This document shows positions 9,034-50,144 of a stretch of 64,000 nucleotides of DNA, piece after piece; position 1 is the stretch's first letter, and each line of letters starts with the position of its first letter. The stretch is taken from contig NZ_CP113929.1 of NCBI RefSeq assembly GCF_029392075.1, positions 930,001 to 994,000 on the forward strand, written 5' to 3'. Below the pieces are notes generated by a model. That model made no database searches and was not told the DNA's origin. It worked only from the letters and a program-made list of their open reading frames with translations. Origin of the DNA: Bifidobacterium sp. ESL0704. Lineage in GTDB: Bacteria; Actinomycetota; Actinomycetes; Actinomycetales; Bifidobacteriaceae. The position numbers and the translations under genes were made by a program.

Positions 9034-9225
9034 GCAGGCATTGGCGGGTGCTGGAGTGGCAATGCCTGCATCAGGCGAAGTGTGTGTGTTCTTATCGGTG
9101 TGAAAGATTGCGCCATATTCAAGCCGCTGAGTCATCGTCAACGGTCTAAATGTGGCGGAAACTGACGATTGCGCCACAAATGGACCATTGATGATTGCTC
9201 GACAGCTTAAATATGGCAGAAATCT
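9034..9225. repeat. Hairpin array with 61-bp period upstream of ybaK
   Basis: A first hairpin pairs GCAGGCATTG (9034-9043) with CAATGCCTGC (9060-9069). It is followed by two related larger hairpins. Their left arms contain CGCCA at 9111 and 9172 and their right arms TGGCG/TGGCA at 9153 and 9214; both pairs are exactly 61 bp apart. The arms are imperfect (for example AGATTGCGCCATATT against AAATATGGCAGAAATCT). Confidence 0.7.
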
Positions 9226-9245
9226 GTACGATCGGGCTGCAATAT

Positions 9246-9287
9246 GATGATGGCCTCCATCCCGATAAAGGGAAGGAGGCCATCATC
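9246..9287 (-). terminator. Terminator of gap
   Basis: GATGATGGCCTCC (9246-9258) and GGAGGCCATCATC (9275-9287) form a perfect 13-bp stem, 43 bp beyond the gap stop codon. There is no clear T tract on either side. Confidence 0.65.
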
Positions 9288-9330
9288 GATATGCTATCTA
9301 GCTGATAGGCTGCTGCCTACCGCGATGTGC

Positions 9331-10386
9331 TCACTTGCTGATCTCAGCGAAGTAGAGCAGGGTGCGGATCATGTTGCAGGTGAAGCCGTACTCGTTGTCG
9401 TAGAAGGCGACAGTGCGGGCCAGCGTGGTGCCGTCGATGGTGTTGACATCGGTCTGGGTGGGATCGAAGACGCCGCCGTGGGTGTCGTCGATGATGTCGG
9501 AGGTGACGATGTTGTCAGCGTTGTAGCCGAAGGTCTCGTTGTCCTCGAAGGCCTTCTTGGCAGCGGCGTTGATCTCGTCGGCGGAGACTTCCTTGTTGAG
9601 CACGGTGAAGAGCTCGGTGAAGGAGCCGTCAGGGATCTGCACGCGCTGAGCGTGGCCCTGCAGCTTGCCGTTGACCGAAGGAACGACCTTGCCGATCGCC
9701 TTGGCGGCGCCGGTGGAGTGCTCGATGGTGTTGACGGCGGCGGCGCGGTTGTTGCGCGGCTTGGAGCCACGAGGGCCGTCAAGCAGCATCTGGCTGCCGG
9801 TGTAGGCGTGCACGGTGGTCATGAAGCCGACCTTGATGCCGAAGTTGTCGTCAAGGAGCTTGACGAGCGCCGCGAAGGAGTTCGTGGTGCAGGAGCCGGC
9901 GGAAACGATGTTGTCGCTGGGCTTGAGGATCTCCTGGTTGACACCGAAGACGACGGTCGGGGTGGTGTCATCCTTGGCCGGAGCGGAGATGAGGACCTTC
10001 TTGGCGCCGGCGTCCAGGTGAGCCTGGCTCTTGGCGGCGGAGGTGTAGAAGCCGGTGCACTCGAGCACGAACTCGACGCCGTCGTTCTTCACCCACGGAA
10101 TGTTGCGGGCGTCCTTCTCGGCATAGACCTTGTATTCCTTGCCGTCGACCACGATCGCGTCATCGGTGGACTCGACCTTGACCGGGGTGCCGTCATCGTG
10201 ACGGAACGTGCCGTGAACGCTGTCGTACTTGAGCAGGTAAGCGAGCATCGCCGGAGTCGTCAGATCATTGATTGCTGCGACCTCGATGTCACTGGCCTCG
10301 CCGCCGCGGGCCTGAAGTTCGAAAATGCGACGGAACGCAAGACGTCCGATACGGCCAAAACCGTTAATACCAATCTTTACTGTCAT
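9331..10386 (-). CDS. gap: Glyceraldehyde-3-phosphate dehydrogenase, type I
   Basis: The 351-residue cytoplasmic enzyme converts glyceraldehyde 3-phosphate to 1,3-bisphosphoglycerate with NAD, in the lower bifid shunt. It starts with the Rossmann motif INGFGRIGRLAFRRI, has the catalytic segment SAGSCTTNSFAALVK and the C-terminal WYDNEYG-type segment AFYDNEYGFTCNMIR. The start at 10386 follows GGGAG. A promoter with TTAAAA and TATACA at 17-bp spacing overlaps the 3' end of the upstream ArsC-like gene. It is monocistronic, with its own terminator. Confidence 0.97.
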   Translation of the reverse strand: MTVKIGINGFGRIGRLAFRRIFELQARGGEASDIEVAAINDLTTPAMLAYLLKYDSVHGTFRHDDGTPVKVESTDDAIVVDGKEYKVYAEKDARNIPWVKNDGVEFVLECTGFYTSAAKSQAHLDAGAKKVLISAPAKDDTTPTVVFGVNQEILKPSDNIVSAGSCTTNSFAALVKLLDDNFGIKVGFMTTVHAYTGSQMLLDGPRGSKPRNNRAAAVNTIEHSTGAAKAIGKVVPSVNGKLQGHAQRVQIPDGSFTELFTVLNKEVSADEINAAAKKAFEDNETFGYNADNIVTSDIIDDTHGGVFDPTQTDVNTIDGTTLARTVAFYDNEYGFTCNMIRTLLYFAEISK

Positions 10387-10437
10387 GTAATTCTCCCTAA
10401 CGGAAACAACTTGGGAACGCGGGCTCGCGCCCTAAGC

Positions 10438-10466
10438 TGTATATTTACCAACAGTTGTTATTTTAA
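10438..10466 (-). promoter_or_regulatory. Promoter of gap
   Basis: On the minus strand TTAAAA (10466-10461) and TATACA (10443-10438) are 17 bp apart. The start of transcription would be about 45 nt before the gap ATG, and the leader contains a small GGGC/GCCC hairpin. Confidence 0.55.
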
Positions 10467-10886
10467 CGTGTCTCCTCTACCAGAAAAGGTGTTTTCCCAT
10501 GTTTCCGGGTCAAAACCCACCAAAATTTTGTTAGCGTTCACAACAATCGGACGCTTGACCAACATGCCATTGGTTGCAAGGAGTTTCAGCTGCTCATCCT
10601 CGCTCATTTCGGGTAGTTTGGTCTTGAGTTTCATTTCGCGGTAGGGCATGCCTGAAGTATTGAAGAAACGCTTCAGCGGCAGACCGCTCGCCTTCCACCA
10701 TCGCTTGAGTTCGGCGGCGGTGGGGTTGTCGCCTTTGATGTCGCGTTCGGTGAAGTCGATGTTGTTTTCGCCCAGCCATCGGCGCGCTTTGGCACAGGTG
10801 GTGCAGTGGTTGTAGCACACGAAGAGCACCTTGCCGTCCTGCTGGGCAGGGTCAGGTGTCGGGGCAGTTGTTTTGGCGTCGGTCAT
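10458..10886 (-). CDS. ArsC/Spx-family thioredoxin-fold protein
   Basis: The 142-residue protein has a CxxC pair (NHCTTCAKARRWLGEN) near residue 25 and the ArsC-family blocks FTERDIKGDNPTAAELKRWW and MLVKRPIVVNANKILVGF. It could be a glutaredoxin-type arsenate reductase or an Spx/MgsR-like protein. The second cysteine of CxxC and the absence of arsenic genes make a thiol-redox role more likely than arsenate reduction. Two ATGs are adjacent (10889 and 10886) after AAAGGA; the second has the better spacing. The gene is just upstream of gap. Confidence 0.8.
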   Translation of the reverse strand: MTDAKTTAPTPDPAQQDGKVLFVCYNHCTTCAKARRWLGENNIDFTERDIKGDNPTAAELKRWWKASGLPLKRFFNTSGMPYREMKLKTKLPEMSEDEQLKLLATNGMLVKRPIVVNANKILVGFDPETWENTFSGRGDTLK

Positions 10887-10970
10887 CATGGGTCCTTTCG
10901 AAGCGATGGGGTTGATGCTGATTCGATTCTATGGCCGTGGGTTCGTTTTGCCAATGCCTGTCAGTGCCTA

Positions 10971-11144
10971 CTGGAGGTTTTGCGACGCTAAGAGCGGCGT
11001 TTGCGTCGTGGAAGTGCCATTTTGTCTCGATGTTGGAGGTTTTGCGACGTTGTCTGCGGCGTTTGCGTCGTGGAAGCTCCGTTATCGCCGAGTGCTGGAG
11101 GTTTCACGACGCTGATAGTCGTGTTTGCGTCGCAAAACCTCCAG
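10971..11144. repeat. Three-copy 62-bp hairpin array (GGAGGTTTTGCGACGC type)
   Basis: TGGAGGT begins at 10972, 11034 and 11096, and GCGTCG at 11003, 11065 and 11127; every interval is exactly 62 bp. In each unit GCGACG-type and GCGTCG words can pair, and in the last unit the pairing extends to the full GCGTCGCAAAACCTCCAG arm (11127-11144). The array fills most of the spacer between the thiN stop and the ArsC-like gene start. Confidence 0.9.
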
Positions 11145-11194
11145 TCCGATTGAATGATGCGATCAGAGTTGCGTGTTGTGGACGCTTGTCGTGG

Positions 11195-12154
11195 TCAATC
11201 CCATTTGTCGGCGGATCTTGCCAGAAGCTTCGAGGGCTGGTCTGCCAGAGGGCCAAGATCTTCGACCGGTGTGACGGTAGTGGTGAGTACGTCGATTGTC
11301 GTACCGATGGGGAAAGTGATGATCAGTGTGCCGTCGGCCACGCTGATTGAGGCTGGATGCCCGTCGAGCAGTTCGTTGCTCACCCCGATCACGGTGTCGC
11401 TGCGCATCGTGCCGTTTTCCAGTTCGTACTTGAGTCCCGTTTCGGTGACCCCTCGCGAGATATCGGCGTGGGAGAAAACCGAAACCATGCGGTTGGTGGG
11501 ATCGGTATCGGCGCCATCGCCGGGGTTGCCGCACGTTTCGCTGTCGATCTTGGCCATGGTTTCCGAGACGGTTCGAGTATCGGGATAAGATCTGGGACTC
11601 GATGGGTTCTTGCATGTCTCGCTGCCGGTTTTGGCTTCGTAGCCCGGGACGTTTCGTATATCGCGATGGGTTTGCCCCATTGCGTCGGCAGCGTTGCTGT
11701 CAAGACTCAAGGCGTCGGCGGAAAAGTGAATCGATCCGTTGCAAATGGCCGTGACCACGCTGTGCTCGCCGTAGAGTAGTCCGATACCGCCGTTGTGGGC
11801 CAGCAAGGCAAGCATCTGGATGTTGGCGACGCTATGATCGATCCTTCCGCCCAGTCCGCCGTAAATGCGGAAGTCCCTGTATCCGCGCGACCACCCGGCT
11901 TTCAGCGCTGAAAGCATGTCCGGATCGTCATGTTCCGGCGGCAGCGCGATGGTTTCGACACCTTGCGGGATTCCTGCTTTTGCCGAATCGAAATCGCCGA
12001 TGGCCAGATCGGGTCTGATGCCCGAAGCGATGGCGTGGTCAAGTCCGCCGTCGGCGGTGATGACAAAAGCATTCGTCGGCATTTTCTCGGCCGTCGGCTC
12101 GTTGCCGTAGTAGGTTCCGGCGGCGAAAACGAAACATGGATGAGAAAGGGTCAT
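11195..12154 (-). CDS. thiN: Thiamine pyrophosphokinase with a large internal insertion
   Basis: This 319-residue enzyme transfers pyrophosphate from ATP to thiamine. The catalytic half has ITADGGLDHA, IGDFDS and HDDPDMLSALK (residues about 32-87) and GGRIDH (102-107). The thiamine-binding half is recognisable at residues about 221-285 (VSVFSHADISRGVTETGLKY, then DTVIGVSNELLDGHPASISV). Between them about 75 residues (roughly 145-220) are not part of the usual fold, are rich in Ser, Thr, Asp and Pro, and include the near-repeat SETCKNP / SETCGNP. Typical TPKs have 210-260 residues. The start at 12154 is chosen over 12187, although neither has a strong ribosome site. Confidence 0.88.
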   Translation of the reverse strand: MTLSHPCFVFAAGTYYGNEPTAEKMPTNAFVITADGGLDHAIASGIRPDLAIGDFDSAKAGIPQGVETIALPPEHDDPDMLSALKAGWSRGYRDFRIYGGLGGRIDHSVANIQMLALLAHNGGIGLLYGEHSVVTAICNGSIHFSADALSLDSNAADAMGQTHRDIRNVPGYEAKTGSETCKNPSSPRSYPDTRTVSETMAKIDSETCGNPGDGADTDPTNRMVSVFSHADISRGVTETGLKYELENGTMRSDTVIGVSNELLDGHPASISVADGTLIITFPIGTTIDVLTTTVTPVEDLGPLADQPSKLLARSADKWD

Positions 12155-12179
12155 AAATAAAATTTTACATGCGTCGGCG

Positions 12180-12329
12180 GCTCGCATTTTTAGGGCGTTT
12201 GGAAAAATGCGAGCAAAATAAACGTTGACGATTTTGGAAATGTCTCAAAATCGTTGCAATGATGCTATTATGCTGTGAACAATGTTTGTTTTCGGCTCGC
12301 ATTTTTGCAGACCTTAAAAAATGCGAGCC
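12180..12329. repeat. Three hairpins between thiN and the VOC gene
   Basis: Hairpin 1 pairs GCTCGCATTTTT (12180-12191) with AAAAATGCGAGC (12203-12214). Hairpin 2 pairs CGATTTTG (12229-12236) with CAAAATCG (12246-12253). Hairpin 3 repeats hairpin 1 as GGCTCGCATTTTT (12294-12306) and AAAAATGCGAGCC (12317-12329). The outer hairpins share the same arms but differ in their loops. The block occupies the space between divergent genes. Confidence 0.85.
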
Positions 12330-12352
12330 GTCCCGAGCTGAAGGGAATGATT

Positions 12353-12721
12353 ATGATCAACCATATCGGTGTGTACACACTCAATTTTGATACCGAAAAG
12401 GCTTTTTATCAGGCGGTGTTGGCGCCTCTCGGCTATGTTCAAGGTGCCGAATTCCCCGGAGCCGTGATGTTCTCGGACGGTAAGGATGGCGACAGCGTCT
12501 GGATCGAAGCCGCGAAGGAAGGCACGACCCCGTCGCCGATTCATCTCGCGTTCGCGGCGCAGGATGAGGAAGCGGTGAAGGCGTTTTACGAAGCCGGTCT
12601 CAAGGCCGGTGGCAGCGACAACGGCGCGCCCGGCCCGCGTCCGAATTATGGCCCGAACTATTACGCGGCCTTCGTTCACGATCCCGACGGCAACAATATC
12701 GAAGCCGTGATCAACAAGTAG
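12353..12721 (+). CDS. VOC (glyoxalase/bleomycin-resistance fold) family protein
   Basis: This 122-residue protein starts MINHIGVYTLNFDTEKAFY and ends AAFVHDPDGNNIEAVINK, the typical first and last strands of a single VOC module with metal-ligand positions His4 and the C-terminal Glu. Members act in glyoxal detoxification or as dioxygenase-like or binding proteins; the substrate cannot be inferred. The start at 12353 is six bases after AAGGGA; an upstream in-frame ATG at 12347 touches that site and is less likely. A GNAT gene follows 100 bp downstream. Confidence 0.85.
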   Translation: MINHIGVYTLNFDTEKAFYQAVLAPLGYVQGAEFPGAVMFSDGKDGDSVWIEAAKEGTTPSPIHLAFAAQDEEAVKAFYEAGLKAGGSDNGAPGPRPNYGPNYYAAFVHDPDGNNIEAVINK

Positions 12722-12821
12722 GTCCGAGGCCCGTTTCGCAAATTGTGTGGGGCGGGCATATTCGTTCCGTCGTTGCGATGCGTCGATTGACGGGGCGTGG
12801 TTTCCAAGGAAGGAAACGATT

Positions 12822-13337
12822 ATGCCGACTACAAGTGAGCTTTCCATCGTCGTGCGCCATATCACGCCGGCCGATTTCGAGGCCAAGGCCCGAGTGCACT
12901 CGCAGACCTGGCACGAGACCTATCAGGGCAAATTGCCGCAATGGCTGGTCGACAAGATCACGCCGGAGTTTGCCTTTGAAGTCACCAAGCGCCATGACCC
13001 GGCGAGCGTGTTCGTAGCGCTGGTGGACGATGAGGTGGTCGGTTACGCCGAATTCGCTAATCCTGCCCGCGAACCCAGCGACTATCCCAATTGCGCGGAA
13101 TTGGGCGCAATATATGTCCTTAACCGTTGCCAGGGCCTCGGAATCGGGCGCAAGCTGGCACAGGCTGTTTTCGACGCGTTGCCCACCAAACGTGTGGTGC
13201 TCTGGGTGCTGGAATTCAACGATAAGGCGCAGGGCTTTTACCGTCACATTGGTTTCCACCCCACCGGCCAAGTGCAGACGGAAGACGGCGGTGCGTCGAA
13301 AGAGCTGGAATACGCCAATTTTGATGTCTCTGAGTAA
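12822..13337 (+). CDS. GNAT-family N-acetyltransferase
   Basis: The 171-residue protein has the acetyl-CoA-binding motif A (GAIYVLNRCQGLGIGRKLAQ, residues about 90-110) and motif B (WVLEFNDKAQGFYRHIGF). It would transfer an acetyl group from acetyl-CoA to a small molecule or protein; the substrate is unknown. ATG 12822 follows AAGGAAGG. It is the second gene after the VOC protein and ends at an 18-bp stem terminator. Confidence 0.88.
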   Translation: MPTTSELSIVVRHITPADFEAKARVHSQTWHETYQGKLPQWLVDKITPEFAFEVTKRHDPASVFVALVDDEVVGYAEFANPAREPSDYPNCAELGAIYVLNRCQGLGIGRKLAQAVFDALPTKRVVLWVLEFNDKAQGFYRHIGFHPTGQVQTEDGGASKELEYANFDVSE

Positions 13338-13340
13338 AGC

Positions 13341-13389
13341 AATGAAAAGTGACGGGCAGCTTCGACTCGGTTGCCCGTCACTTTTCATT
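13341..13389. terminator. Bidirectional terminator between GNAT gene and dehydrogenase
   Basis: AATGAAAAGTGACGGGCA (13341-13358) and TGCCCGTCACTTTTCATT (13372-13389) form a perfect 18-bp stem with A-rich and T-rich ends, so it can serve both convergent genes. Confidence 0.85.
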
Positions 13390-13407
13390 TCAATGGCCTA
13401 TCGGCAA

Positions 13408-14472
13408 TCACATTTGGACGATGATTTTGACGTGGTGTTCGGCGTCGTTGCGCAGCGCCTTGAATCCCTTCTCCACGATATCGTCGACCTTGATCCGGTC
13501 GGTGATGAATTGCGAGAGGTCGATGTGCTTGTCGTGGACCAGCTTGATGACCTCTTCATGGTCATGGGCATAACCGATGGAAGCACCGACGAGCTTTTCG
13601 GGCAAGATGAGCTCGGACAGGACGTCAAGTGTGACAGGCTTGGCGTGCAATGCCACGATTTCCAGCCTTCCCTCCGGATGGAGCGCGGAAAGGAGCTGAT
13701 GGACGACGATTTCGGATCCGGCCGCGTCGAACGCGATATCCGCTCCGTCGCCATTGGTCTCTTTGTATGCTCGTTTTCCGAGGTCCTCTTTGCTTGGATC
13801 GACGACGATGTCCGCCGCTCCGGAGCTCAGCGCCTTTTCCTTGCGGACGTTGGAAAGCTCGGACATGATGACCCGGACTCCCTTGGCCTTGAGCACGGTG
13901 CCGATCAGCAGGCCGATAGGACCGGCGCCGCCGACCACGGCCGTCTGGCCTGGCTGGGGATCGGTGCGACGGACCGCATGATAGGCCACCGACATGGGTT
14001 CGATGAGCGCCGCCTGGTCAAGGGGCAGATCGCCGATGGCATGTACCCAGCGGGATTCGACCACGATGTGTTCGCTCAGACCGCCGCCCTTGCCATTGAT
14101 GCCGATGAAGCCCATCTTCTCGCATGCGTTGTAGTTGCCGGACTTGCAGGCACTGCATTCGCCGCACACCATAAGCGGCTCGACCACGACGGGGTCGCCG
14201 ACTTTGACAGGTGTGTCGACATCATCCGCGATTTCCTCTACGACACCAGAGAACTCATGGCCGAAACCCATGGGAAGCTTCTCGCCCGAGAGGGGATGCG
14301 CGACGTCGGGGTTGATGCCGCCGCTTTCAGGACCGTCGAAGTAAAGGTGCAGGTCGGATCCGCAGATGCCGGTGTAGGCGGGTTTGATCTTGATTGTTCC
14401 CGGTTTCAGGTCCGGTTCAGGAATGTCGTCAAGCTGGATATGTTCTTTACCGTAATAGCGAACTGCTCGCAT
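13408..14472 (-). CDS. Zinc-dependent alcohol dehydrogenase, 2,3-butanediol dehydrogenase-like
   Basis: The 354-residue medium-chain dehydrogenase has the catalytic-zinc segment GICGSDLHLYFDGPE, GHEFSGVVEEI, the four-cysteine structural zinc loop CGECSACKSGNYNAC, and the NAD motif VVGGAGPIGLLIG. The insertion after the first zinc ligand and the EPMSVAYHAV segment are typical of (R,R)-butanediol/sorbitol-type enzymes that reduce acetoin or oxidise diols; the precise substrate is uncertain. The start at 14472 follows AAGGAGAAG. A perfect CRP-type palindrome lies just upstream of the start. Confidence 0.88.
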   Translation of the reverse strand: MRAVRYYGKEHIQLDDIPEPDLKPGTIKIKPAYTGICGSDLHLYFDGPESGGINPDVAHPLSGEKLPMGFGHEFSGVVEEIADDVDTPVKVGDPVVVEPLMVCGECSACKSGNYNACEKMGFIGINGKGGGLSEHIVVESRWVHAIGDLPLDQAALIEPMSVAYHAVRRTDPQPGQTAVVGGAGPIGLLIGTVLKAKGVRVIMSELSNVRKEKALSSGAADIVVDPSKEDLGKRAYKETNGDGADIAFDAAGSEIVVHQLLSALHPEGRLEIVALHAKPVTLDVLSELILPEKLVGASIGYAHDHEEVIKLVHDKHIDLSQFITDRIKVDDIVEKGFKALRNDAEHHVKIIVQM

Positions 14473-14489
14473 ATCTTCTCCTTGTAATA

Positions 14490-14505
14490 TGTGATGGACA
14501 TCACA
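14490..14505. promoter_or_regulatory. CRP/FNR-type operator upstream of the dehydrogenase
   Basis: TGTGA-TGGACA-TCACA matches the classical CRP half-sites exactly, and the symmetry extends one base each side (ATGTGATG/CATCACAT). It sits 18 bp before the dehydrogenase start, a position suited to repression. No CRP-family gene is present in the window. Confidence 0.6.
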
Positions 14506-14564
14506 TTTATGATAGACGTGGCCTGTACATTTCTGTGAAGTGTTTCGATTGTCCGCAGATGGGG

Positions 14565-14814
14565 TATACTTAATACTCGGCTTGAGAAATCAAGAAAGTG
14601 GGTGCGCCCCACCTGGAAGCTTTTCGTAGCTTCGGGTTCAAGGCATTCCTTGCTTTGGCAGGGAATCGAAAGTGCGGTATTTGCCGTGGCTTTCTACGGT
14701 ATTGATTGAGTTTGATGCTTGTGTTTTGAATCTTTGTTGCGATTATTGCCGAGTTGATTCGGTATTTGTTTTCGACGGCGGTGCATTCAGCAGTAGCAAG
14801 GATTGGAGTTCATC
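14565..14814 (+). promoter_or_regulatory. Promoter and structured leader of the infC-rpmI-rplT operon
   Basis: A TATACT -10 box at 14565-14570 is followed by about 240 nt of leader. The leader can fold several hairpins: GTGGG/CCCAC (14599-14612), GAAGCT/AGCTTC (14614-14631), ATTCC/GGAAT (14645-14667) and a weaker TGCCGT/ACGGTA hairpin (14684-14702). Leaders of this operon commonly bind L20 or respond to IF-3 levels, so autoregulation is likely. The leader holds no convincing peptide. Confidence 0.55.
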
Positions 14815-15678
14815 ATCAGCGCAGAACCACGCATTAACGACGAGATACGCGTTTCCAAGGTACGCCTGATCGGCCCGAACAGCGAGCAGGTCGGTGTCAT
14901 CGCGACCTCAGTCGCATTGAATCTGGCCAAGGAAGCCAATCTCGATTTGGTTGAAGTGGCGCCGAACGCAGATCCTCCGGTGGCCAAGCTCATCGACTAT
15001 GGCAAGTACAAGTACAACGAGAAGATCAAGCAGCGTGAGGCACGTCGTAATCAGAGTGCGGCCGAGATCAAGGAAATTCGTTTCCGCTTGAAGATAGACG
15101 AACATGATTTTGAGACCAAGAAGGGCCATGTCATCCGCTTCCTTTCTGGCGGCGACAAGGTCAAGGTCACCATCATGCTGCGCGGTCGCGAGCAGTCCCG
15201 TCCGATTGGCGGGGTGGAGCTTTTGCAGCGTCTGGCCGATGAGGTCTCCGAATACGGCACCATCGAGTTCTACCCGAAGCACGAAGGGCGCAACATCTTC
15301 ATGACGTTGGCTCCCAAGGGCAAGAAAGTGCACGCCCAGTCCGAGCAGCGTCGTCGTGGCGCCGATACCCGTGCCGATCGCCAGGCCCGCCAGAAAGCTC
15401 GTCTTGCCGCCAAAGAGAAGGAAAAGGCGCAGGAGGCCGGTAAGGCGAAGGCTGCGGTCAACGAGATCAAAGGGGCGCAGACGGATGCTGGAGAAAAGCC
15501 CGCCAAAGCTTCTGCTGCAAAGCCGACAGTCAAGGCCGGCAAGAGCGAAATGCCTGCTAAATCGACTGCGTCTGCGAAAGCCGTCAAATCGGTTGCGCCG
15601 AAAAGCGGCAAGGCAAAGTCCGCAACTTCAGCCAAGCCCGCAAAACCGGCCAAGCCGATGCCCAGGGCAAAAAAGTAA
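14815..15678 (+). CDS. infC: Translation initiation factor IF-3 with lysine/alanine-rich tail and probable AUC start
   Basis: Residues 1-175 form the two IF-3 domains (EPRINDEIRVSKVRLIGP, then KYKYNEKIKQREARR, KEIRFRLKIDEHDFETKKGH and MLRGREQSRP), which bind the 30S subunit and check start codons. No ATG or GTG precedes the conserved region. GGAG at 14805-14808 is six bases before ATC 14815, giving (M)SAEPRIND. TTG 14803 overlaps that site and is less suitable. Rare AUU or AUC starts are known for infC and support autoregulation by IF-3. The last 110 residues are a Lys/Ala/Pro-rich tail not present in the 180-residue standard protein. rpmI and rplT follow. Confidence 0.9.
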   Translation: MSAEPRINDEIRVSKVRLIGPNSEQVGVIATSVALNLAKEANLDLVEVAPNADPPVAKLIDYGKYKYNEKIKQREARRNQSAAEIKEIRFRLKIDEHDFETKKGHVIRFLSGGDKVKVTIMLRGREQSRPIGGVELLQRLADEVSEYGTIEFYPKHEGRNIFMTLAPKGKKVHAQSEQRRRGADTRADRQARQKARLAAKEKEKAQEAGKAKAAVNEIKGAQTDAGEKPAKASAAKPTVKAGKSEMPAKSTASAKAVKSVAPKSGKAKSATSAKPAKPAKPMPRAKK

Positions 15679-15771
15679 CAACAAGATTTTTGTGTCTGTC
15701 GATTCACACGTCAGCAGGCACAGGACATCGAAGAATGAATTCGATTTCCGAAGGAAAATAGGAGGGCAGCA

Positions 15772-15966
15772 ATGCCGAAGATGAAAACCAATTCCGCCGC
15801 GAAAAAGCGCGTCCGCGTCACCGGTACGGGCAAGCTCATGCAGGCTGGCACCTCGATGCGCCACAACCTTGAGCACAAGTCCGCGCGCAAGCGCCGCAAC
15901 CTCTCCCGCGACCAGGTGCTGGCCACGGCTCAGAGCAAGAACATGCGAAAGCTGCTCGGTCGCTGA
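15772..15966 (+). CDS. rpmI: Ribosomal protein bL35
   Basis: This 64-residue basic protein ([23 protein letters not shown] at the end) has the length and start of bL35 from the large subunit. GGAGGGC precedes the ATG. It is the second gene of the infC-rpmI-rplT operon, 93 bp after infC and 54 bp before rplT. Confidence 0.97.
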
Positions 15967-16020
15967 ATCGGCTCGGTTTATAGGGTATACAAGGTTTAAT
16001 AGAAAGCTAGAGGAAACAAT

Positions 16021-16404
16021 ATGGCACGTGTCAAGCGCGCAGTGAACGCTCATAAGAAGCGTCGCGTCGTCTTAAAGAGGGCTTCGGGCTATCGTGGTCA
16101 GCGCTCCCGTTCGTATCGTCGCGCGAAAGAGCAGCTGCTCCATTCATTTAACTACAACTTCCGCGACCGCAAGGCGCGTAAGGGTGATTTCCGCAAGCTG
16201 TGGATCCAGCGTATCAACGCTGCCGTCCGCGCCCAGGGCATCACCTACAACCGCTTCATGCAGGGTCTGAAGCTCGCGGGCATCGAACTTGACCGTCGCG
16301 CTCTGGCCGAGCTGGCCGTTTCCGATCCGGACACGTTCAAGACCATCGTCGACCAGGCCAAGGGTGCACTGCCCAAGGACGTTAACGCTCCTGTGAACGC
16401 CTGA
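16021..16404 (+). CDS. rplT: Ribosomal protein bL20
   Basis: The 127-residue protein begins [20 protein letters not shown] and contains the RNA-binding block [18 protein letters not shown] and [10 protein letters not shown]. It binds 23S rRNA early in assembly and in many bacteria represses its own operon through the leader. AGAGGAAAC precedes the start. A strong terminator follows. Confidence 0.97.
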
Positions 16405-16425
16405 GCATCTGCGTTCGAAACTGTC

Positions 16426-16451
16426 AAGCCTCCGCTTTTGCGGGGGCTTTT
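16426..16451 (+). terminator. Rho-independent terminator of infC-rpmI-rplT
   Basis: AAGCCTCCGC and GCGGGGGCTT pair around a TTTT loop, with one T-G wobble, and run into TTTT 22 bp after the rplT stop. Confidence 0.88.
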
Positions 16452-16503: not shown

Positions 16504-16510
16504 AAGAGAT

Positions 16511-23671: not shown

Positions 23672-23683
23672 TCGGCGGTCGTT

Positions 23684-23818
23684 GCAGAGATAATCACATT
23701 TCTGGGCTGTTTTCGTGATTTTCGTTGCAATGGATAGATAAGTGCAGAGATAATCACGCTTTTAGGCTGTTTTTCGTGATTATCTCTGTATTTGGTGCGT
23801 GGTTGCAGAGATAATCAC
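23684..23818. repeat. Hairpin array GCAGAGATAATCAC, period 60-61 bp
   Basis: GCAGAGATAATCAC begins at 23684, 23744 and 23805. The inverse word CGTGATTATCTCTG at 23775-23788 makes a perfect hairpin with the second copy; the first copy has a decayed partner beginning CGTGATTTTCG at 23714, 61 bp from the intact one. The array follows xerD. Confidence 0.88.
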
Positions 23819-23926
23819 AGCTCGGGATGATTGCTTCGATGATGGATGAAGAATAGATGACATTGGTATACCAGTGGATTATGATGATTATTGGTATGGC
23901 GTATGCGATGAGGCGGGAGCGGTGTG

Positions 23927-42818: not shown

Positions 42819-42874
42819 TGCATTGAAGGTGCTACGGGATTCTGACATAGTGGTGTCATAATCCTGCAGGATTC

Positions 42875-42908
42875 AAGCGGGAGGATGCGAAAGCGTCTTC
42901 CCGCTTTT
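42875..42908 (+). terminator. Terminator after oppA copy 1
   Basis: AAGCGGGAGGATGC pairs with GCGTCTTCCCGCTT (two wobble pairs) around a GAAA tetraloop and ends in TTTT, 57 bp after the stop. The rest of the 348-bp spacer up to copy 2 holds no gene. Confidence 0.85.
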
Positions 42909-43166
42909 GCATACCTGTTTCGCGGTGTGCATGGCGGCAATCGTTGCCGATGCCGTGTCGCTGCGGGTGTAGTGTGGTGCGGGTTGCGTTTTGGCCGGCC
43001 ATCTTGGGAGTTTTGAGCGAAAGTGTCCGAATAGTGTTCATCGGCACCTGCCCGTTACATTCATGGAGTTCAATGGCATCATGCAGCTGGTTGAGCAAAC
43101 AGCTGCAAGACTTTCGGCATGATTTGCCGTTCAAGTCGGGGAGACCATCTGCAGGAAAGAAGAACA

Positions 43167-44798
43167 ATGAAGAAACGAATGCTTGCACTCACCGCTGTGG
43201 CATGCTCACTGGGCATGCTTCTCGCCGGTTGCGGCGCAACGAACGCAACGGGTGCCAAGGACGGCAATGGAGTGATCACCGTCTTCGACACGGAGCCGCA
43301 GAATCTGCTCGTTCCGGGCAACACCAATGAGTCGGGCGGCGCCCGGCCCGGCACGCTGCTGTTCGCAGGACTTGTCTCCTTCGATGCCAAAGGCAAGGCG
43401 TCCAATGAGGTGGCCCAGTCGATCGAGGGCAATGCGAACTCCACCCAATACACCGTCAAGCTCAAACCGGGTTGGAAGTTCAGTGACGGCACCCCGGTGA
43501 CGTCGAAATCCTTCACCAAGGCATGGAGCTATGTCGCCAATGTGAAGAACGCTCAGAAGTGCTCGTCCTTCCTCTCCACCGTTCAGGGCTATGACGACCT
43601 GCAGAAGGCCGGCAGTCTCAAAGGCACCGAGCAGCTTTCCGGGTTGAAGGATATCGACGATACCACGTTCACGGTCACCATGTCCAAGCCGGACGCGACT
43701 TTCCCGATCAAGGTCGGCTATCTTGCCTTCGCCCCGCTGCCTGAGTCGTTCTACAAGGATCCCAAGGCCTTCGGCAATGCTCCGGTGGGCGACGGACCCT
43801 ATAAGTTGGAAAGCTGGAACCATAACACGGAGATCCGGCTGGTGCGCAACAAGCTCTACAAGGGCAACGTCAAGCCGAAGAACGGGGGTGTAACGTTCAA
43901 GATCTACACCAAGGTGGACGCCGCATACGCCGACGTGCAGGGGAATAATCTTGATGTGCTCGACACGGTGCCCACCGCCGATGCCAAAAGCTTCAGGACC
44001 GACCAGAACGTGCAGGCGTACAACCGACCGGGTTCGATCATTCAGATGTTCACGATTCCTTCGAACCTGCCGCATTTCGAGGCAGGCACCCAGGAGGGCA
44101 CGTTGCGTCGTCAGGCCATATCCAAGGCCATCGACAGGCAGGGGATCATCGACAAGGTGCTCAACGGCACCGGCACGCAGCCGGTCGATTTCACCTCGCC
44201 CAAGACCCCTGGATTCTCCAAAGGGCTGAAAGGCAAAGACAACCTCGTCTTTAACGCCGCGAGCGCCAAGGAGCTGTGGGCCAAGGCCGACGCCATTTCC
44301 AAGGACAACGACAAATTCACCATCTCCTACAACTCGGACGGCGGCAACAAGGCGATCTACGACGCCATGGTCAACTCCATCAAGAACACGCTGGGCATCG
44401 ACGTGGCCGCCGACCCGATGCCGACATTCCAGGAATTCCGCAATGCCGTCGACAAACGCAGCATCAAGGGCGGCTTCCGTTCCGGCTGGCAGCCCGACTA
44501 TCCTTCCGCCGAGAACTATCTGTTCCAGGAATACGATTCCGCTGCGGCCCACGGCAGCGGTTCCAATGACGGGGACTATCAAAACCGCGAATACGACCGG
44601 TTGATGGATGAAGCCTACGCGGCTCCGTCCACGGACGCGGCCAACGCCATCTACAGCCAGGCGCAGGAGATTCTGTTGAACGACCTGCCGGCGATTCCCA
44701 TGTATTATGACAATGCACACGGTGTGGCGGCCAAGGGGGTCAAAGGCCTGGCCGTGGACTGGCAGAACCTACCGGTATACAGCCAGTTGCATAAGTAG
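43167..44798 (+). CDS. Oligopeptide ABC transporter substrate-binding lipoprotein 2
   Basis: This 543-residue paralogue of the preceding gene has its own lipoprotein signal (MKKRMLALTAVACSLGMLLA, lipobox LAGC). The core aligns throughout (KFSDGTPVTSKSFTKAWSYV, FRSGWQPDYPSAENYL). The copies share a 57-base identical stretch although they differ elsewhere. The start at 43167 follows AGGAAAG. A strong terminator follows, so it is probably expressed separately from the permeases. Two binding proteins on one transporter would widen peptide specificity. Confidence 0.93.
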   Translation: MKKRMLALTAVACSLGMLLAGCGATNATGAKDGNGVITVFDTEPQNLLVPGNTNESGGARPGTLLFAGLVSFDAKGKASNEVAQSIEGNANSTQYTVKLKPGWKFSDGTPVTSKSFTKAWSYVANVKNAQKCSSFLSTVQGYDDLQKAGSLKGTEQLSGLKDIDDTTFTVTMSKPDATFPIKVGYLAFAPLPESFYKDPKAFGNAPVGDGPYKLESWNHNTEIRLVRNKLYKGNVKPKNGGVTFKIYTKVDAAYADVQGNNLDVLDTVPTADAKSFRTDQNVQAYNRPGSIIQMFTIPSNLPHFEAGTQEGTLRRQAISKAIDRQGIIDKVLNGTGTQPVDFTSPKTPGFSKGLKGKDNLVFNAASAKELWAKADAISKDNDKFTISYNSDGGNKAIYDAMVNSIKNTLGIDVAADPMPTFQEFRNAVDKRSIKGGFRSGWQPDYPSAENYLFQEYDSAAAHGSGSNDGDYQNREYDRLMDEAYAAPSTDAANAIYSQAQEILLNDLPAIPMYYDNAHGVAAKGVKGLAVDWQNLPVYSQLHK

Positions 44799-44839
44799 TA
44801 TCTGGCCGTATACGGCTTTGATGTACGGTTGGTGACCGT

Positions 44840-44881
44840 GTGAAGACGATCTCCTTATGACATCGTCTTCACATTTTTTTT
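44840..44881 (+). terminator. Terminator after the second binding-protein gene
   Basis: GTGAAGACGAT (44840-44850) and ATCGTCTTCAC (44862-44872) make a perfect 11-bp stem followed by A and eight T residues. Confidence 0.93.
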
Positions 44882-45002
44882 AACATTCTTGACTTGTGCC
44901 TGCGCTACACTAACAGACATATGTCTAAAAGCCTAAAAGGATTATCTGTGCTTTCAAGGAGTTTGGCCAATCCCGGGCTTAGGAAAAATAAGGAGTTAAC
45001 CG

Positions 45003-45929
45003 ATGGGCAAGTATCTTCTGCGCCGTATTCTGCAGATGATCCCCGTGGTTCTCGGCACAACGTTGTTGGTTTACGCCCTTGTCTTCGCGCTTCCCGGTGA
45101 TCCGGTGAAGGCGATGTTCGGCGACAAACCGGTCAACGCTGCGGTCGCGGCCCAGATTCGCGCGGAATATAACCTCGATAAGCCATTCATCATTCAGTAT
45201 CTGCTGTTCCTGAAGAACGCATTGACACTCAATTTCGGCAACACGTTCGCCGGGCAGCCGGTTATCGACGAGATAGGCAGGGCCTTCCCGGTGACCATCA
45301 GGCTGGCATTGATGGCTTTCGTGTTCGAGGCGGTATTCGGTGTCATATTCGGCATCATCTCCGGTCTGAAAAAAGGCAAGTGGTACGATTCCGTCATCCT
45401 GATTGTCTCCCTGCTCCTGATTTCCGTGCCGACGTTCGTCACCGGTTTCCTGGCGCAGTACTTCCTCGGTGTCAAGTGGCGTCTGCTGCCGGTCACCGCA
45501 GGCAGCGACCCCGGCTTCCTGGACCTGTTGATGCCGGCCATGGTGCTTGGTTCCGTTTCGATGGCCTATATCATCAGGCTTACGCGTTCCGAGGTCTCCT
45601 CGAACATCGCCGAGGACTATGTACGCACCGCCCGGGCCAAAGGCATGTCGAACCGATCGGTGATCGTTCGCCATGTGCTGCGTAATTCCTTGATTCCTGT
45701 CGTCACCTATCTCGGCCAGGATCTTGGAGCGCTGATGGGCGGCGCCATGATTTCGGAAACCATCTTCAACGTCCACGGCATCGGCTTCCTGACCTATCAA
45801 AGCATCCTCAAGGGTGAAAGCAACATGGTGGTTTCCATCGTCACGCTGCTGACCCTGATATTCGTGGTATGCAACCTGGCTGTTGATATGCTCTACGCGG
45901 CTCTCGATCCGCGTATCAGGTATGCGTGA
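45003..45929 (+). CDS. oppB: Oligopeptide ABC transporter permease OppB
   Basis: The 308-residue inner-membrane protein has six hydrophobic segments, starting KYLLRRILQMIPVVLGTTLL, typical of DppB/OppB. The ATPase-coupling loop reads DYVRTARAKGMSNRSVIVRH. TAAGGAG precedes the start. It is the first of three tightly spaced genes (17 and 16 bp gaps) for the membrane part of the transporter. Confidence 0.96.
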   Translation: MGKYLLRRILQMIPVVLGTTLLVYALVFALPGDPVKAMFGDKPVNAAVAAQIRAEYNLDKPFIIQYLLFLKNALTLNFGNTFAGQPVIDEIGRAFPVTIRLALMAFVFEAVFGVIFGIISGLKKGKWYDSVILIVSLLLISVPTFVTGFLAQYFLGVKWRLLPVTAGSDPGFLDLLMPAMVLGSVSMAYIIRLTRSEVSSNIAEDYVRTARAKGMSNRSVIVRHVLRNSLIPVVTYLGQDLGALMGGAMISETIFNVHGIGFLTYQSILKGESNMVVSIVTLLTLIFVVCNLAVDMLYAALDPRIRYA

Positions 45930-45946
45930 GTAGGGGAGGAGACCAA

Positions 45947-46924
45947 ATGAGCGACAAGACAACCAATATGACCATGGCCGATTCCCATGTGCTTCCCGGG
46001 CAGGAACGGTACGTAGCACCGCCGGATGCCGTCAAACTGCAGGAAGTCGATTCGGTCGATGAATCGGCACCTGCCACCAGTATGTGGGCCGACGCGTGGA
46101 GGACGCTGCGTAAGAACCCGCTGTTCATCGTTTCGGCGATACTGATTCTCTGCGTCATCTTCGTGGCGCTGTTCCCGGGTGTGTTCACCCATCAGAACCC
46201 CAATTTCTGCCAGTTGGACCATTCCCTGGAGAAAGGCAGCGCCGGTCATCCCTTCGGCTACGACACCCAGGGCTGCGACGTCTTCACCCGTACCGTCTAC
46301 GGCACCCGTACCTCGCTGTCCGTCGGCATTCTCACCACGCTGCTCGTGATGGTCGTCGGTTCCCTGATCGGGGCCCTCGCCGGCTTCTTCGGCGGCTGGA
46401 TCGATGCGGTGCTGAGCCGTTTCACCGATATCTTCATGGCCATCCCGCTGTTGCTCGGTGCCATCGTGGTGCTGCAGATGTTCCGTACCTCCGGATCGGT
46501 CTGGAAGATCGTGCTGGTGCTGACACTGTTCGGCTGGACACAGACCGCGCGAATATCGCGAGGGGCGGTGATGGAGACCAAGAACCTTGAGTTCAACACC
46601 GCTTCCACCGCGTTGGGTTCGACGCCGTGGCGCAACCTGATGCGACACATCCTTCCCAATTCCATGGCCTCGATCATCGTGGTGACCACCACGTCACTCG
46701 GCACCTACATCGTCTCCGAGGCGACCCTGAGCTTCCTCGGTATCGGCCTGCCGACCACGACCGTGAGCTGGGGCGGCGATATTTCCAACGCGCAGACCAT
46801 CCTGCGCACCGATCCCTCCGTCCTCTTCTATCCGTCGGCCGCGCTGGCCATCACGGTGCTTGCCTTCATCATGATGGGCGACGCCGTCAAGGACGCGCTT
46901 GACCCCAAGAGCCGTACGGCGTGA
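45947..46924 (+). CDS. oppC: Oligopeptide ABC transporter permease OppC
   Basis: The 325-residue permease has the OppC N-terminal segment SMWADAWRTLRKNPLFIVSA, the extracytoplasmic loop GYDTQGCDVFTRTVYGTRTS and the coupling helix EFNTASTALGSTPWRNLMRH. The start at 45947 follows GGGGAGGAG; a start at 45926 would overlap oppB but has no better signal. It pairs with OppB in the membrane. Confidence 0.95.
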   Translation: MSDKTTNMTMADSHVLPGQERYVAPPDAVKLQEVDSVDESAPATSMWADAWRTLRKNPLFIVSAILILCVIFVALFPGVFTHQNPNFCQLDHSLEKGSAGHPFGYDTQGCDVFTRTVYGTRTSLSVGILTTLLVMVVGSLIGALAGFFGGWIDAVLSRFTDIFMAIPLLLGAIVVLQMFRTSGSVWKIVLVLTLFGWTQTARISRGAVMETKNLEFNTASTALGSTPWRNLMRHILPNSMASIIVVTTTSLGTYIVSEATLSFLGIGLPTTTVSWGGDISNAQTILRTDPSVLFYPSAALAITVLAFIMMGDAVKDALDPKSRTA

Positions 46925-46940
46925 GTGCGGAGGAAACACG

Positions 46941-48965
46941 ATGAGCGAAATGAATAGCAAGAACGAAAAGAACGAAAAACTTTTTCAGATGCAGCGTGAG
47001 CAGGGGCCGATCCTTGAGGTCAAGGACCTGAAGGTCGACTTCACCACCGGCGACAAACGTGCGGTGCATGCCGTGCGCGACGCCTCCTTCAACGTCTATC
47101 CGGGCCAATGGGTCGCGATCGTGGGCGAATCGGGCTCCGGCAAGTCCACTTCCGCCATGGCGGTTCTGGGTCTGCTTCCCGGCACCGGTCACGTCGTGGG
47201 CGGCTCCATCAAGCTGGAAGGCGAGGAGATTTCCGGCTACACGCGCAAGCAGTATGAGCAGCTTCTCGGCGACAAGATGGGCCTGGTCCCGCAGGACCCG
47301 ATGAGCAACCTCAACCCTGTCTGGCGCATCGGCACCCAGGTGGAAGAGGCTTTGAAGGCCAACCACATGGACATCTCCCACGAGAAGCGTTCGAAACTGG
47401 CCAAGGCGTTGGCCGGCGGCGAAGTGGCGGTCAAAAGCGAGGACGATGAGACCTTCATCGGCTCCAAAGAGCTTCCCGACCTTCTGAAGGCCGCACAGGA
47501 CGCTCTTGGCGAGGCCGGTGTGAACGGCGACCAAGCCGAGAAAAAGATGGACTATTTCAGGCAGGAATGGGTTCCCGGTTCCGAGACCCGCTGGCGCGTG
47601 GCCGATGACCTGATCAAGGCCGGGGTCGGCGATGACAAGGCGTGGGAGATTGCCAAGCAGTATGTGCTCGGCAGCACCATGACCGACCGCATCTCCGGTC
47701 TTCTGCAAGAGGCTGGTCTGCCCGACGCGGCCACCCGTGCCCGTCAGTACCCGCACGAGTTCTCCGGCGGTATGCTGCAGCGTGCGCTGATCGCCATCGG
47801 CCTGGCCTGCCGCCCCGATCTGCTGATCGCAGACGAGCCCACCAGCGCCCTCGACGTCACCGTGCAGAAGAGGATCCTCGACCACCTGCACACCCTGACC
47901 GACGAACTTGGCACCGCAGTGCTGTTCATCACCCATGATCTGGGTCTGGCCGCCGAACGCGCCCAGCACATCGTGGTCATGTACAAGGGTCAGGTCGTCG
48001 AATCCGGCCCGTCGCTTGAGGTGCTCCAGCATCCGCAGCATCCCTACACCAAGCGTCTGGTGGCCGCAGCCCCGTCGCTGGCCTCTCAGCGCATCATCTC
48101 CGCCAAGGAACACGGTGAGAACGCCGAGTCCTTGATGGAGCATCATGTCAAGGGAGAGGAAACGCTTGAGAAGAGCGAGCACATCATTACGGTGAGCCAC
48201 CTGACCCGCGAATTCAAGCTTCCGCGCAAGAAGGAAATGTTCAAGGCCGTCGACGATGTGTCATTCTCGGTCAAGCGGGGCACGACGCTGGCGATTGTGG
48301 GCGAATCCGGTTCAGGCAAGTCCACCGTGGCCAATATGGTGTTGAAACTCCTGAAGCCCACCAGCGGCACCGTGACCTACGAAGGCAAGGACATCAGCGA
48401 GTTTGAGGGCAAATCGCTGCTCGACTTCCGCAGGCACGTCCAGCCGGTCTTCCAGAACCCGTACGGTTCGCTCGATCCGATGTATTCCATCTACCGCTCC
48501 ATCGAGGAACCGTTGCGCATCCACAAGATCGGCGACAAGAAGAGCCGTGAACAGCGCGTGCGAGAGCTGCTCGATCTGGTGAAGATGCCGCAATCGGTGA
48601 TGCAGCGCTATCCGAACGAGCTTTCCGGTGGCCAGCGTCAGCGCATCGCCGTCGCCCGCGCCATGGCTTTGAACCCCGACGTTATCGTCTGCGACGAGGC
48701 CGTTTCCGCCCTCGACGTGTTGGTGCAGGATCAGGTGCTGCAGCTGTTGAACGATCTGCAGGCCGAACGTGGGCTGAGCTACCTGTTCATCACCCACGAT
48801 CTGGCCGTGGTCCGTCAGATCGCCGATGAGGTCGTGGTGATGCAGAAGGGCAGGCTTGTCGAGCACGCCACCACCGACGAGGTCTTCGACCATCCGAAGC
48901 AGCAGTACACCAAGGATCTGCTCGACGCGATTCCAGGAGGCCATCTGCAGCTCGGTTTGGACTGA
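46941..48965 (+). CDS. oppD: Fused oligopeptide transporter ATPase OppD-OppF
   Basis: The 674-residue protein holds two ABC domains in one chain. Domain 1 has Walker [10 protein letters not shown] (residues 62-70), Q-loop [10 protein letters not shown] (about 117), signature FSGGM (274-278) and Walker B DLLIADEP. Domain 2 has Walker [11 protein letters not shown] again, Q-loop [10 protein letters not shown], signature LSGGQRQR and [12 protein letters not shown]. The distance from Q-loop to signature in domain 1 is about 155 residues, roughly 100 more than usual, because of a helical, acidic insertion. GGAGG precedes ATG 46941. Confidence 0.94.
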
Positions 48966-49022
48966 GTGTTGTAGGCCCGAATGTTTGAGACCGATCACGA
49001 GAATCGGTTGAACGACCAGTCA

Positions 49023-49051
49023 ATCCCGTCACCGTCGGTGGCGGGATTTTC
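49023..49051 (+). terminator. Terminator of the opp permease/ATPase operon
   Basis: AATCCCGTCACC and GGTGGCGGGATT pair (one mismatch) around GTC, followed by TT, 58 bp after the ATPase stop. Confidence 0.85.
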
Positions 49052-49115
49052 ATATTCCGCAATGAATGCATGCTCGTCTTTGCTGCGACCACGCAGGCGT
49101 GTATTGTCGGAGGTC

Positions 49116-49982
49116 ATGAGCATAACAGTGACTACTTCGAATCTGAACGGTATCCGCGCGGCCAGACGCAAGGGCGTGCTTGACTGGGCCGAGGCCAATA
49201 CCCCGGACATCTGGTGCATGCAGGAGGTGCGCGCTCCGCAGGAGGAGATCGACCCTATTTTCGAAGCCATGGCGGATGGCTACGCCAAGGCCGGCAAGGT
49301 TTCGGAAGCTGAGAATCTTGGCCGTATGGATGAGGTCTGCCGTATCAAGGGCCGCGCCGGGGTCGGCCTGTTGAGCGACCTCGATATCGAGGAACGGCGT
49401 TACGGGCTGATGGACCTGGACGAAGATGTCGATTCAGGCCGTTGGATCGAGGCCGACGTCACCACCCCGTCGGGTATGAAACTTACCGTCGCCAGCGTCT
49501 ACGTGCACGCGGGCAATACCGACGACCCCAACAAGATGATGCAGAAATACCGCTTCCTCGACCGTATGCTCGAGCGCATGGGCGAGCTGCGTGACGAGGC
49601 CGAAAAGGGTGGCCGTCAGGCACTGCTGTGCGGCGACATGAATATCGCCCACACCCCGCTGGATATCAAGAACGCCAAGGCCAATGAGAAGCATTCAGGC
49701 TTTCTGCCTGCCGAACGCGCCTACGTCGACCAATGGCTCGACCCCGCGCAATACGGTTTCGTCGATGTCATGAGGAACCTGGCCGGTGACGTGCAGGGCC
49801 CGTACACCTGGTGGAGCCAGCGCGGACGTGCCTTCGACAACAACGTCGGCTGGAGGATCGACTATCAGCTGGCGACCCGGGAATTGGCCGAAACGGCCGT
49901 GTCCTTCGACATCGATCGAGCTCCCTCCTATGACACCCGCTGGTCCGATCATGCACCGTTGAGTGTGGTGTATGAGATCTAG
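49116..49982 (+). CDS. xthA: Exodeoxyribonuclease III
   Basis: The 288-residue AP endonuclease/3' exonuclease repairs abasic DNA. It has VTTSNLNGIRAARRKGVLDW, the metal-binding Glu in IWCMQEVRA, DMNIAHTPLDIKN and the C-terminal DTRWSDHAPLSVVY with the catalytic His. Start 49116 lies one base after GGAGGTC, and a TATTGT box just upstream suggests a very short leader. A longer frame from 48981 includes the terminator and is wrong. Confidence 0.95.
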   Translation: MSITVTTSNLNGIRAARRKGVLDWAEANTPDIWCMQEVRAPQEEIDPIFEAMADGYAKAGKVSEAENLGRMDEVCRIKGRAGVGLLSDLDIEERRYGLMDLDEDVDSGRWIEADVTTPSGMKLTVASVYVHAGNTDDPNKMMQKYRFLDRMLERMGELRDEAEKGGRQALLCGDMNIAHTPLDIKNAKANEKHSGFLPAERAYVDQWLDPAQYGFVDVMRNLAGDVQGPYTWWSQRGRAFDNNVGWRIDYQLATRELAETAVSFDIDRAPSYDTRWSDHAPLSVVYEI

Positions 49983-49984
49983 AT

Positions 49985-50144
49985 TCACATTTTTCGGGCG
50001 CCGGGGAAAGGTGAGCCCCAGACGAACATTGCTCTGAGCATGTCCTCGTGAATCGTTGTCGTTACAGGATTCGTGAGGAATATGGAGAATGAGCGAATGT
50101 TCGGTTGGCTCACGCTTTTTAAAACGTCAGAAAAGTGTGAGCCA
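49985..50144. repeat. Three hairpins with about 62-bp spacing after xthA
   Basis: Hairpin centres lie near 50000, 50061 and 50125. Hairpin 1 is an imperfect TCAC-TTTTC/GGAAA-GTGA stem. Hairpin 2 pairs CCTCGTGAATC (50044-50054) with GATTCGTGAGG (50068-50078). Hairpin 3 pairs TGGCTCACGCTTTT (50106-50119) with AAAAGTGTGAGCCA (50131-50144). GTGAGCC recurs at 50011 and 50137, 126 bp apart. Confidence 0.8.

Follow-up and report, generated by a model that had tools for sequence, protein, structure and literature searches.

Arrays of the window and their families

The stretch of Bifidobacterium sp. ESL0704 DNA analysed here (the window, 64,000 nucleotides, bases 930001-994000 of a single-contig genome of 2,415,815 bases, labelled G000) carries tandem arrays of palindromic units, which a sequence-only reading had described as a class of about 61-bp intergenic hairpin arrays. 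We re-measured the regions of that reading by hairpin and lag scans, at both stricter and looser settings. The class is real, no published account of these repeats was found in literature searches, and it is larger than first described, with lag peaks at 61-62 bp genome-wide, although not every region listed belongs to it. The following arrays of the window represent families F1, F2 and F3:

8223..8424, strand.: F1 array, period 62, with CTTGGTGCACCAAG palindromes at 8224-8237, 8286-8299, 8348-8361 and 8410-8423
10972..11144, strand.: F2 array, period 62, with TGGAGGTTTTGCGACGC-type arms; GCGTCGCAAAACCTCCA closes the last unit
23683..23819, strand.: F3 array, period 60-61, with five TGCAGAGATAATCAC-type arms of alternating orientation

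In the F1 array the four units are exactly 62.0 bp apart from palindrome to palindrome, and in the linkers A/T tracts and GC patches keep constant distances. The F2 array is 35/40 identical at a 62-bp lag. The array previously placed at 23684-23818 was borne out by its alternating arms and four measured dyads (23706, 23736, 23766.5 and 23797).

To these we added a lag scan of 784 kb of G000 (the window and 36 stretches of 20 kb, 14 of them chosen for holding F1), counting regions with at least 30/45 identities at lags 25-134. Lags 61 and 62 yielded 21 and 30 regions, while other lags averaged 1.9 (the background excludes 60-63 and 122-125); in the 440 kb outside the window and not chosen for F1, the counts were 10 and 9 against a mean of 0.8. 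Among repeated identical 12-mers in 464 kb, 62, 124, 61 and 186 were the most frequent distances between 15 and 400.

Eight families, F1-F8, share the period of 61-62 bp. The F1 core, CTTGGTGCACCAAG, is a 14-bp palindrome with 48 exact copies, or 61 when one-base inserts are included. The F2-F8 element consists of two inverted 16-bp arms spanning 47-48 bp; the arms were searched with <=4 mismatches, so that arm totals include chance matches, and F5 and F6, which resemble each other, share elements. The arms, each paired with its own inverse, are:

F2: TGGAGGTTTTGTGACG
F3: TGCAGAGATAATCACG
F4: ATCATGGGTTTGTAGC
F5: TGCGTTGAAAAGCAGA
F6: TGCGATGAAAATCAGC
F7: TGCCTCTAAGCCAATA
F8: TGCTGGTAAACGGCAT

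Contrary to the earlier statement, an arm sequence is not generally confined to a single array, since F1, F3 and F5/F6 occur at many loci genome-wide and F2, F4 and F8 at no fewer than six loci each (>=6) in the sample. Across 440 kb, 18 clusters of F2-F8 arms were found, which by scaling gives ~100 per genome, in addition to 27 F1 loci.

Inverted arms alternate every 29-32 bp (~three helical turns) in F2-F8, and the units of all eight families recur every 61-62 bp (six turns). For arms lying within 60 bp of each other, the plus-to-minus arm distance of F2-F8 lay at the family mode in 82/84 pairs: 32 in F2 (11/11), F3 (12/13), F4 (14/14), F5 (15/15) and F6 (12/13), and 31 in F7 (2/2) and F8 (16/16). 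Minus-to-plus distances were mostly 29, 30 or 31; F2 had extra spacings of 21 and 41 bp, 4 each, and F8 scattered others. Modal lengths were found in 82/83 loops and 49/50 linkers of F2-F8 (after a +/-1 pre-filter, and with F5/F6 overlapping), and while the loop and linker sequences vary between loci, their length is constant. Neighbouring units often have common loops and linkers.

Among the 136 F1 pairs of six genomes, 104 are listed; of those listed, 93/104 have a spacing of exactly 62 and all 104 fall within 60-63, where 47-77 was allowed, so the period does not vary freely. Single-unit F1 loci exist, with an unchanged core. The centre of sampled cores without insert was TGCA in 43/43 cases in G000 and 37/39 in the sister genome G086, while CGCG, CGCA or TGCG was present in 8/11 cores of G092. 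Such a shift in G092 would fit a recognition change shared across that genome, or sequence bias.

Proposed phased protein sites, and the alternatives of mobile repeats and RNA hairpins

We read the arrays as phased duplex DNA sites for a putative protein, rather than RNA hairpins, with a probability of about 0.5. Phased protein sites are favoured because the spacing holds even where loops and linkers have diverged, the F1 cores are invariant between two sister species and the A/T occupancy is helically periodic, and for these reasons selection for phased protein binding fits best of the two explanations offered by the sequence-only reading. Duplex sites are preferred to RNA hairpins because covariation is absent (F5 being a weak exception), lengths are held and the A/T period is 10.2-10.5 bp.

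The stretches aligned with G086 are mostly 80-95% identical. In the F1 alignment (16 rows from 15 loci, with a split locus counting one unit twice) 0/554 core positions had changed, a figure partly conditioned, as most G086 loci had been fetched for an exact core and one unit was double-counted; the conditioning touches one unit per locus, and 23/38 units lie beyond the first at their own locus. Changes amounted to 39/452 (8.6%) in the next 5 bp (8-12 from the dyad), 20/468 in the A/T zone and 451/6784 in the flanks, with 1 indel in 2427 positions inside and 15 in 6784 outside. By these counts F1 appears as the most constrained family. The F1 array of the window has a syntenic four-unit counterpart in G090, in which one outer core base and central bases are changed and one linker is 1 base shorter, and G086 has a four-unit array with similar linkers. 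F3 alone showed 16/208 changes in its arms, 27/163 between arms and 196/1318 in flanks. As for the orthologous spacers, many F1 arrays are kept, whereas F2-F8 arrays are often lost. Together with a period that does not vary freely and compensatory changes that most families lack, this gives a divided result on the conditions that the sequence-only reading had set for its own refutation.

The best period of A/T occupancy around the dyads was 10.5 bp for F1 (permutation p 0.0027) and 10.2 bp for the mean of F2-F8 (p 0.0003; single families 0.0033 to 0.065), with p values that are optimistic, as permuting positions breaks A/T runs. At 14-18 bp from the F1 dyad the A/T fraction is 0.83-0.99, with both A and T common, which suggests that the minor groove would be read and not the base. 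One loop taken from each of 26 F2-F6 arrays gave A/T at 136/156 edge and 63/156 central positions. One A/T profile for all families was considered and dropped: F1 and the mean of F2-F8 correlate with r 0.29 (p 0.048), yet shifted profiles reach r 0.58, a likeness that is weak at best.

Pairing was compared with shuffled controls. The wings of 54 F1 copies had 271 paired positions against 270.6 +/- 12.1 in shuffles, and the halves of 45 F1 linkers had 402 against 474 +/- 19.8, with all 2000 shuffles at or above the observed value. Arms of F2, F3, F4, F6 and F8 paired no better than with shuffled partners, hence no covariation; the compensatory pair changes that the earlier reading suggested looking for are absent from most families.

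A putative DNA-binding protein, dimeric or higher, would occupy the inverted sites along one face of the helix and touch A/T-rich minor grooves once each turn. The DNA may be bent, wrapped or coated, and the arrays would act as anchors that help to organise the chromosome. Each family would then be an alternative recognition sequence for one geometry, and arrays could lengthen or shorten as whole units are duplicated in tandem or deleted.

Besides the partly conditioned core count and the optimistic p values, several observations weigh against phased duplex sites. F4 and F8 singly reach only p 0.05-0.065 for periodicity, and when the A/T profiles of single F2-F8 families are matched to that of F1, zero shift ranks 4-12 of 31, not first. 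Pairing of F5 arms exceeds that of shuffled ones (28/2000 shuffles as good), a weak covariation, and mismatches of the G.U type outnumber those of the A.C type along the direction of transcription (50 vs 17, or 43 vs 23 counted once each), a hint of RNA pairing. At three G000 F1 loci the syntenic spacer of G086 lacks F1. When 37 F2-F8 clusters were compared with G086, 6 aligned (<=10 bp length change), 14 were without ortholog in the DNA examined and 17 were excluded for a greater length difference; the arms of the six (6/37) were mildly conserved, with 63/400 changes vs 89/314 between arms, and their near and far flanks had 332/1649 and 1141/8755. Four F2-F8 arrays (L019, L016, L012 and L027) have no or next to no counterpart in G086, and such absence fits dispensable or mobile DNA. 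Candidate proteins were likewise missing from the searches: Lrp/AsnC gave 0 matches in G000, the PF00808 histone-fold protein was found in 0/8 genomes including G000 (controls 3/14 positive), and a second ParB was not found in G000, with one ParB_N open frame each in G000, G086, G090, G092 and G093. Thus Lrp/AsnC wrapping, PF00808-type histone wrapping and a Noc-type ParB paralogue as partner were set aside. These three were the only nucleoid genes checked for the association suggested earlier.

The main rival holds the arrays to be selfish repeats like REPINs (doublets of repetitive extragenic palindromic, REP, sequences forming hairpins), that is, inverted doublets whose 16-bp ends are conserved and which a non-Y1 enzyme in need of a fixed spacing would move or amplify. 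The layout is indeed REPIN-like. REPIN/REP doublets and bacterial interspersed mosaic elements (BIMEs), of gammaproteobacteria and others, are likewise intergenic and dispersed, with inverted conserved arms, a length-conserved spacer, ordered tandem clusters and species-limited families (PMC3116915, PMC2817692), the REPINs of Pseudomonas fluorescens also being inverted pairs of 16-mers (PMC3116915). Our arrays too are intergenic and occur in only some species; several families exist side by side, and arrays present in one sister species may be absent from another. On the other hand, PF01797 (Y1/RAYT transposase) was found in 0/8 genomes including G000 (controls 5/14 positive), and RAYT was rejected as their source; five of six families (5/6) lack the compensatory changes described as common in REPINs, with F5 the weak exception; and a single 61-62 bp period runs across unlike arms. 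Each REP is itself a hairpin while the arms here are not, as judged from the text of the papers and from the arms by eye, not computed. Loops are not common to different loci (by eye) and F1 linkers at different loci average 48% identical, so the copies are not recent, and F1 cores stay invariant in place. With neither the transposase nor, F5 apart, compensatory changes found, the arrays do not qualify as REPINs, and REPIN-like repeats moved by another enzyme seem to us possible but rather doubtful. For the earlier suggestion of one enzyme copying a fixed length the evidence is divided: no Y1/RAYT transposase was found in any of the 8 genomes searched, but sister species differ by gains and losses of whole arrays and whole units.

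It is improbable that the units act in RNA, as stem-loops of 3' untranslated regions that stabilise, terminate or process transcripts. The mismatch excess and the F5 pairing speak for this, and the distance of arrays is somewhat shorter to 3' ends, with a median of 103 bp and 29/60 within 100, than to 5' ends, with a median of 144.5 bp and 18/50. However, the count of 43 vs 23 has p 0.019 against 1:1 and only 0.11 against a strand asymmetry of 0.55, which partly explains the excess, and 58 transversions stand beside 66 transitions among arm mismatches. There is no covariation in F1, F2, F3, F4, F6 and F8, fixed loop and linker lengths would be needless for RNA hairpins, and 3/20 F1 arrays sit in divergent spacers. 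Rfam models gave 0 matches in the window at the gathering threshold, and a known RNA family was rejected.

Neutral, satellite-like tandem duplication starting from palindromes, with the common period as a duplication bias, is very unlikely: it agrees with the loops and linkers often shared by neighbouring units and with array lengths that vary between species, but change is slower in F1 cores and F3 arms than in the sequence around them, single-unit F1 loci have the same core and the period is held between units with diverged linkers.

Spread, chromosomal position and other repeats

Among the relatives that carry arrays, the named ones are Bifidobacterium sp. ESL0763 and ESL0784, and the ESL strains are presumably from bee guts. 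The exact F1 core was found in 5/112 genomes of the genus, with a single copy in G109, and degenerate F1 pairs in 6/112 (39 in G090, 34 in G092, 24 in G086, 22 in G000, 16 in G082 and 1 in G083). F5/F6 are present in 6/112 genus genomes, and the exact F3 arm in G000 and G086, with 0 in six further genomes tested. In 200 kb sampled from five other bifidobacteria, lag 62 gave a single region and lag 61 none. In G083 (L100:1343-4222), one 60-bp-lag sequence stands at three places 1377 bp apart, probably in a repetitive gene.

The F5/F6 and F1 patterns gave 0 matches in a viral contig collection, and the F1 array of the window matched no phages or plasmids, leaving carriage by phage or plasmid unsupported. 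F1-type pairs were also at 0 in a broad collection of genome contigs, which may omit near relatives, though G086, G090 and G092 hold them.

By our own ORF-scoring prediction (ORF, open reading frame), 20 F1 arrays lie between tandem (15), divergent (3) or convergent (2) genes, and 37 F2-F8 arrays between tandem (20), convergent (9) or divergent (4) ones, with 4 at a stretch edge. First dyads were within a predicted ORF in only 2/58 cases, which indicates intergenic placement. A regulon was rejected, as no common theme was seen by eye among F1-adjacent genes (a Pfam scan covered ten genes of the window).

In G000, F1 leaves 938-1683 kb empty (~745 kb). This gap is centred on the terminus because the GC skew changes sign at 1.27-1.40 Mb (21 stretches) and ParB lies at 2.406 Mb. 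With 25 merged F1 loci, the probability of the maximum gap was 0.0036, and that of no F1 within 372 kb of the terminus 0.0001, in a test chosen after the data were seen. Of the F1 pairs listed for G090 (35/39), none falls within 876-1609 kb, and the ParB of that genome lies at 2.380 Mb; owing to orthology this case is only partly independent. In G086, one F1 locus at 855 kb falls inside the otherwise empty corresponding region. Avoidance of the terminus by the whole class was rejected, as ten stretches (200 kb) of the G000 gap held three F3 clusters and one F4 cluster. F2 was absent from these stretches, while 584 kb elsewhere contained ten. Near 822 kb of G000 (L161 ~6700-7100), a ~360-bp block with an F1 site and flanking F1-like sites is absent from the syntenic G086 spacer.

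Three further features of the window are as follows:

9108..9225, strand.: putative two-unit array, probably decayed, with GCGCCA...TGGCG arms, a weak 61-bp lag and an imperfect hairpin at 9108-9160
12180..12330, strand.: two perfect-arm hairpins off the 62-bp lattice, GCTCGCATTTTT...AAAAATGCGAGC, centres 114.5 bp apart
50043..50144, strand.: two hairpins with unlike arms, centred 64 bp from each other at 50061 and 50125

The 61-bp architecture reported at 9034-9225 held in part, with a weak lag 61 (24/40 identities) starting about 9121, but a perfect hairpin at 9033-9070 out of register with it. The uneven spacing noted at 12180-12329 was confirmed, and these two good hairpins are a different class from the lattice arrays. 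At 49985-50144, where hairpin centres about 62 and 64 bp apart had been described, the two hairpins 64 bp apart stand (11/14 and 13/14 paired; shuffles of 49975-50160 had a mean best hairpin of 9.45 and a maximum of 11, n=200), but the first, near 50000, was below 10/14. The supposed decayed array at 52005-52141 was not upheld, with a best lag of 66 (21/40) and a best hairpin of 10/14, the level of shuffles taken from 49975-50160. Hairpins of type GGCTCACATTTTT...AAAAATGTGAGCC (50106-50144, 12180-12330) were also seen at L016:15198, L085:9931, L085:10055 and L066:4515, with shorter loops, and are possibly a separate class.

Lags 51 and 102 form a second genome-wide peak in G000, and lag 51 also tops the pooled five other bifidobacteria (3 regions). 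The next lags in the 784-kb scan were 51 (17), 63 (15), 102 (15) and 124 (13), and the 440-kb subset had 9 regions at lag 51 and 10 at lag 102. The tandem array at 62396-62658, with a 51-bp period (TGTCATGAATCTGGGAATAATCTCGAATCAGTGAC..., 4.5 copies, 98% alike), is of a class other than 61-62 bp; the 51-bp class is perhaps a five-turn sister class. At 7026-7101 there is a long inverted repeat, each arm with AAAGTGGTCA-like decamers ~20 bp apart, and related repeats were observed at L075:12209 and L013:4001.

Comparison with known systems and meaning

Noc has ~70 sites with a 14-bp palindromic consensus and SlmA 24-52 sites, both scarce in the Ter region (PMC4726725). F1, a 14-bp palindrome with 61 copies including inserts, is likewise scattered and absent from ~745 kb around the terminus of G000. 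It differs in its 62-bp arrays, in the G086 locus at 855 kb, and in that no second ParB-family gene was found in G000; G083 has two ParB_N open frames. Membership among Noc sites fails on the ParB paralogue, although the F1 layout is Noc-like.

Lrp/AsnC arrays have sites phased by three helical turns. The ~31-bp phasing and the wrapping suggested here are alike, whereas an AsnC-family match is absent from G000. Such a gene is present in 73/112 genus genomes, with no match in G000, G082, G083, G086, G090, G091 and G092, and one in G093.

The Bifidobacterium animalis motif GGGACAG(N)15TGTCCC, an inverted pair with a 15-base gap that is 95% intergenic (PMC5217627, Table 7), is also a bifidobacterial inverted pair, but with another arm sequence, and the available part of that text states no tandem period. 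A unit of ~61 bp with unique stretches between constant ones recalls clustered regularly interspaced short palindromic repeats (CRISPR); here, however, 16-bp arms alternate in orientation and are dispersed over many loci, where CRISPR would have a single locus of direct repeats, all identical (cas genes were not searched).

A more specific form of the phased-site reading, speculative and on balance unlikely, is that a chromosome-organising protein of bee-associated bifidobacteria uses a common 62-bp duplex lattice, on which the terminus-avoiding F1 would be a nucleoid-occlusion-like or segregation-coupled mark in an actinobacterium without a Noc paralogue. As a candidate positional mark across the whole chromosome, F1 can be tested directly, in a genome in which no Noc-type ParB paralogue was found. 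Unlike families with one rigid six-turn period, kept despite sequence change, point to a common spacing-reading machine, and the set of arrays offers natural sequence variants for finding the protein.

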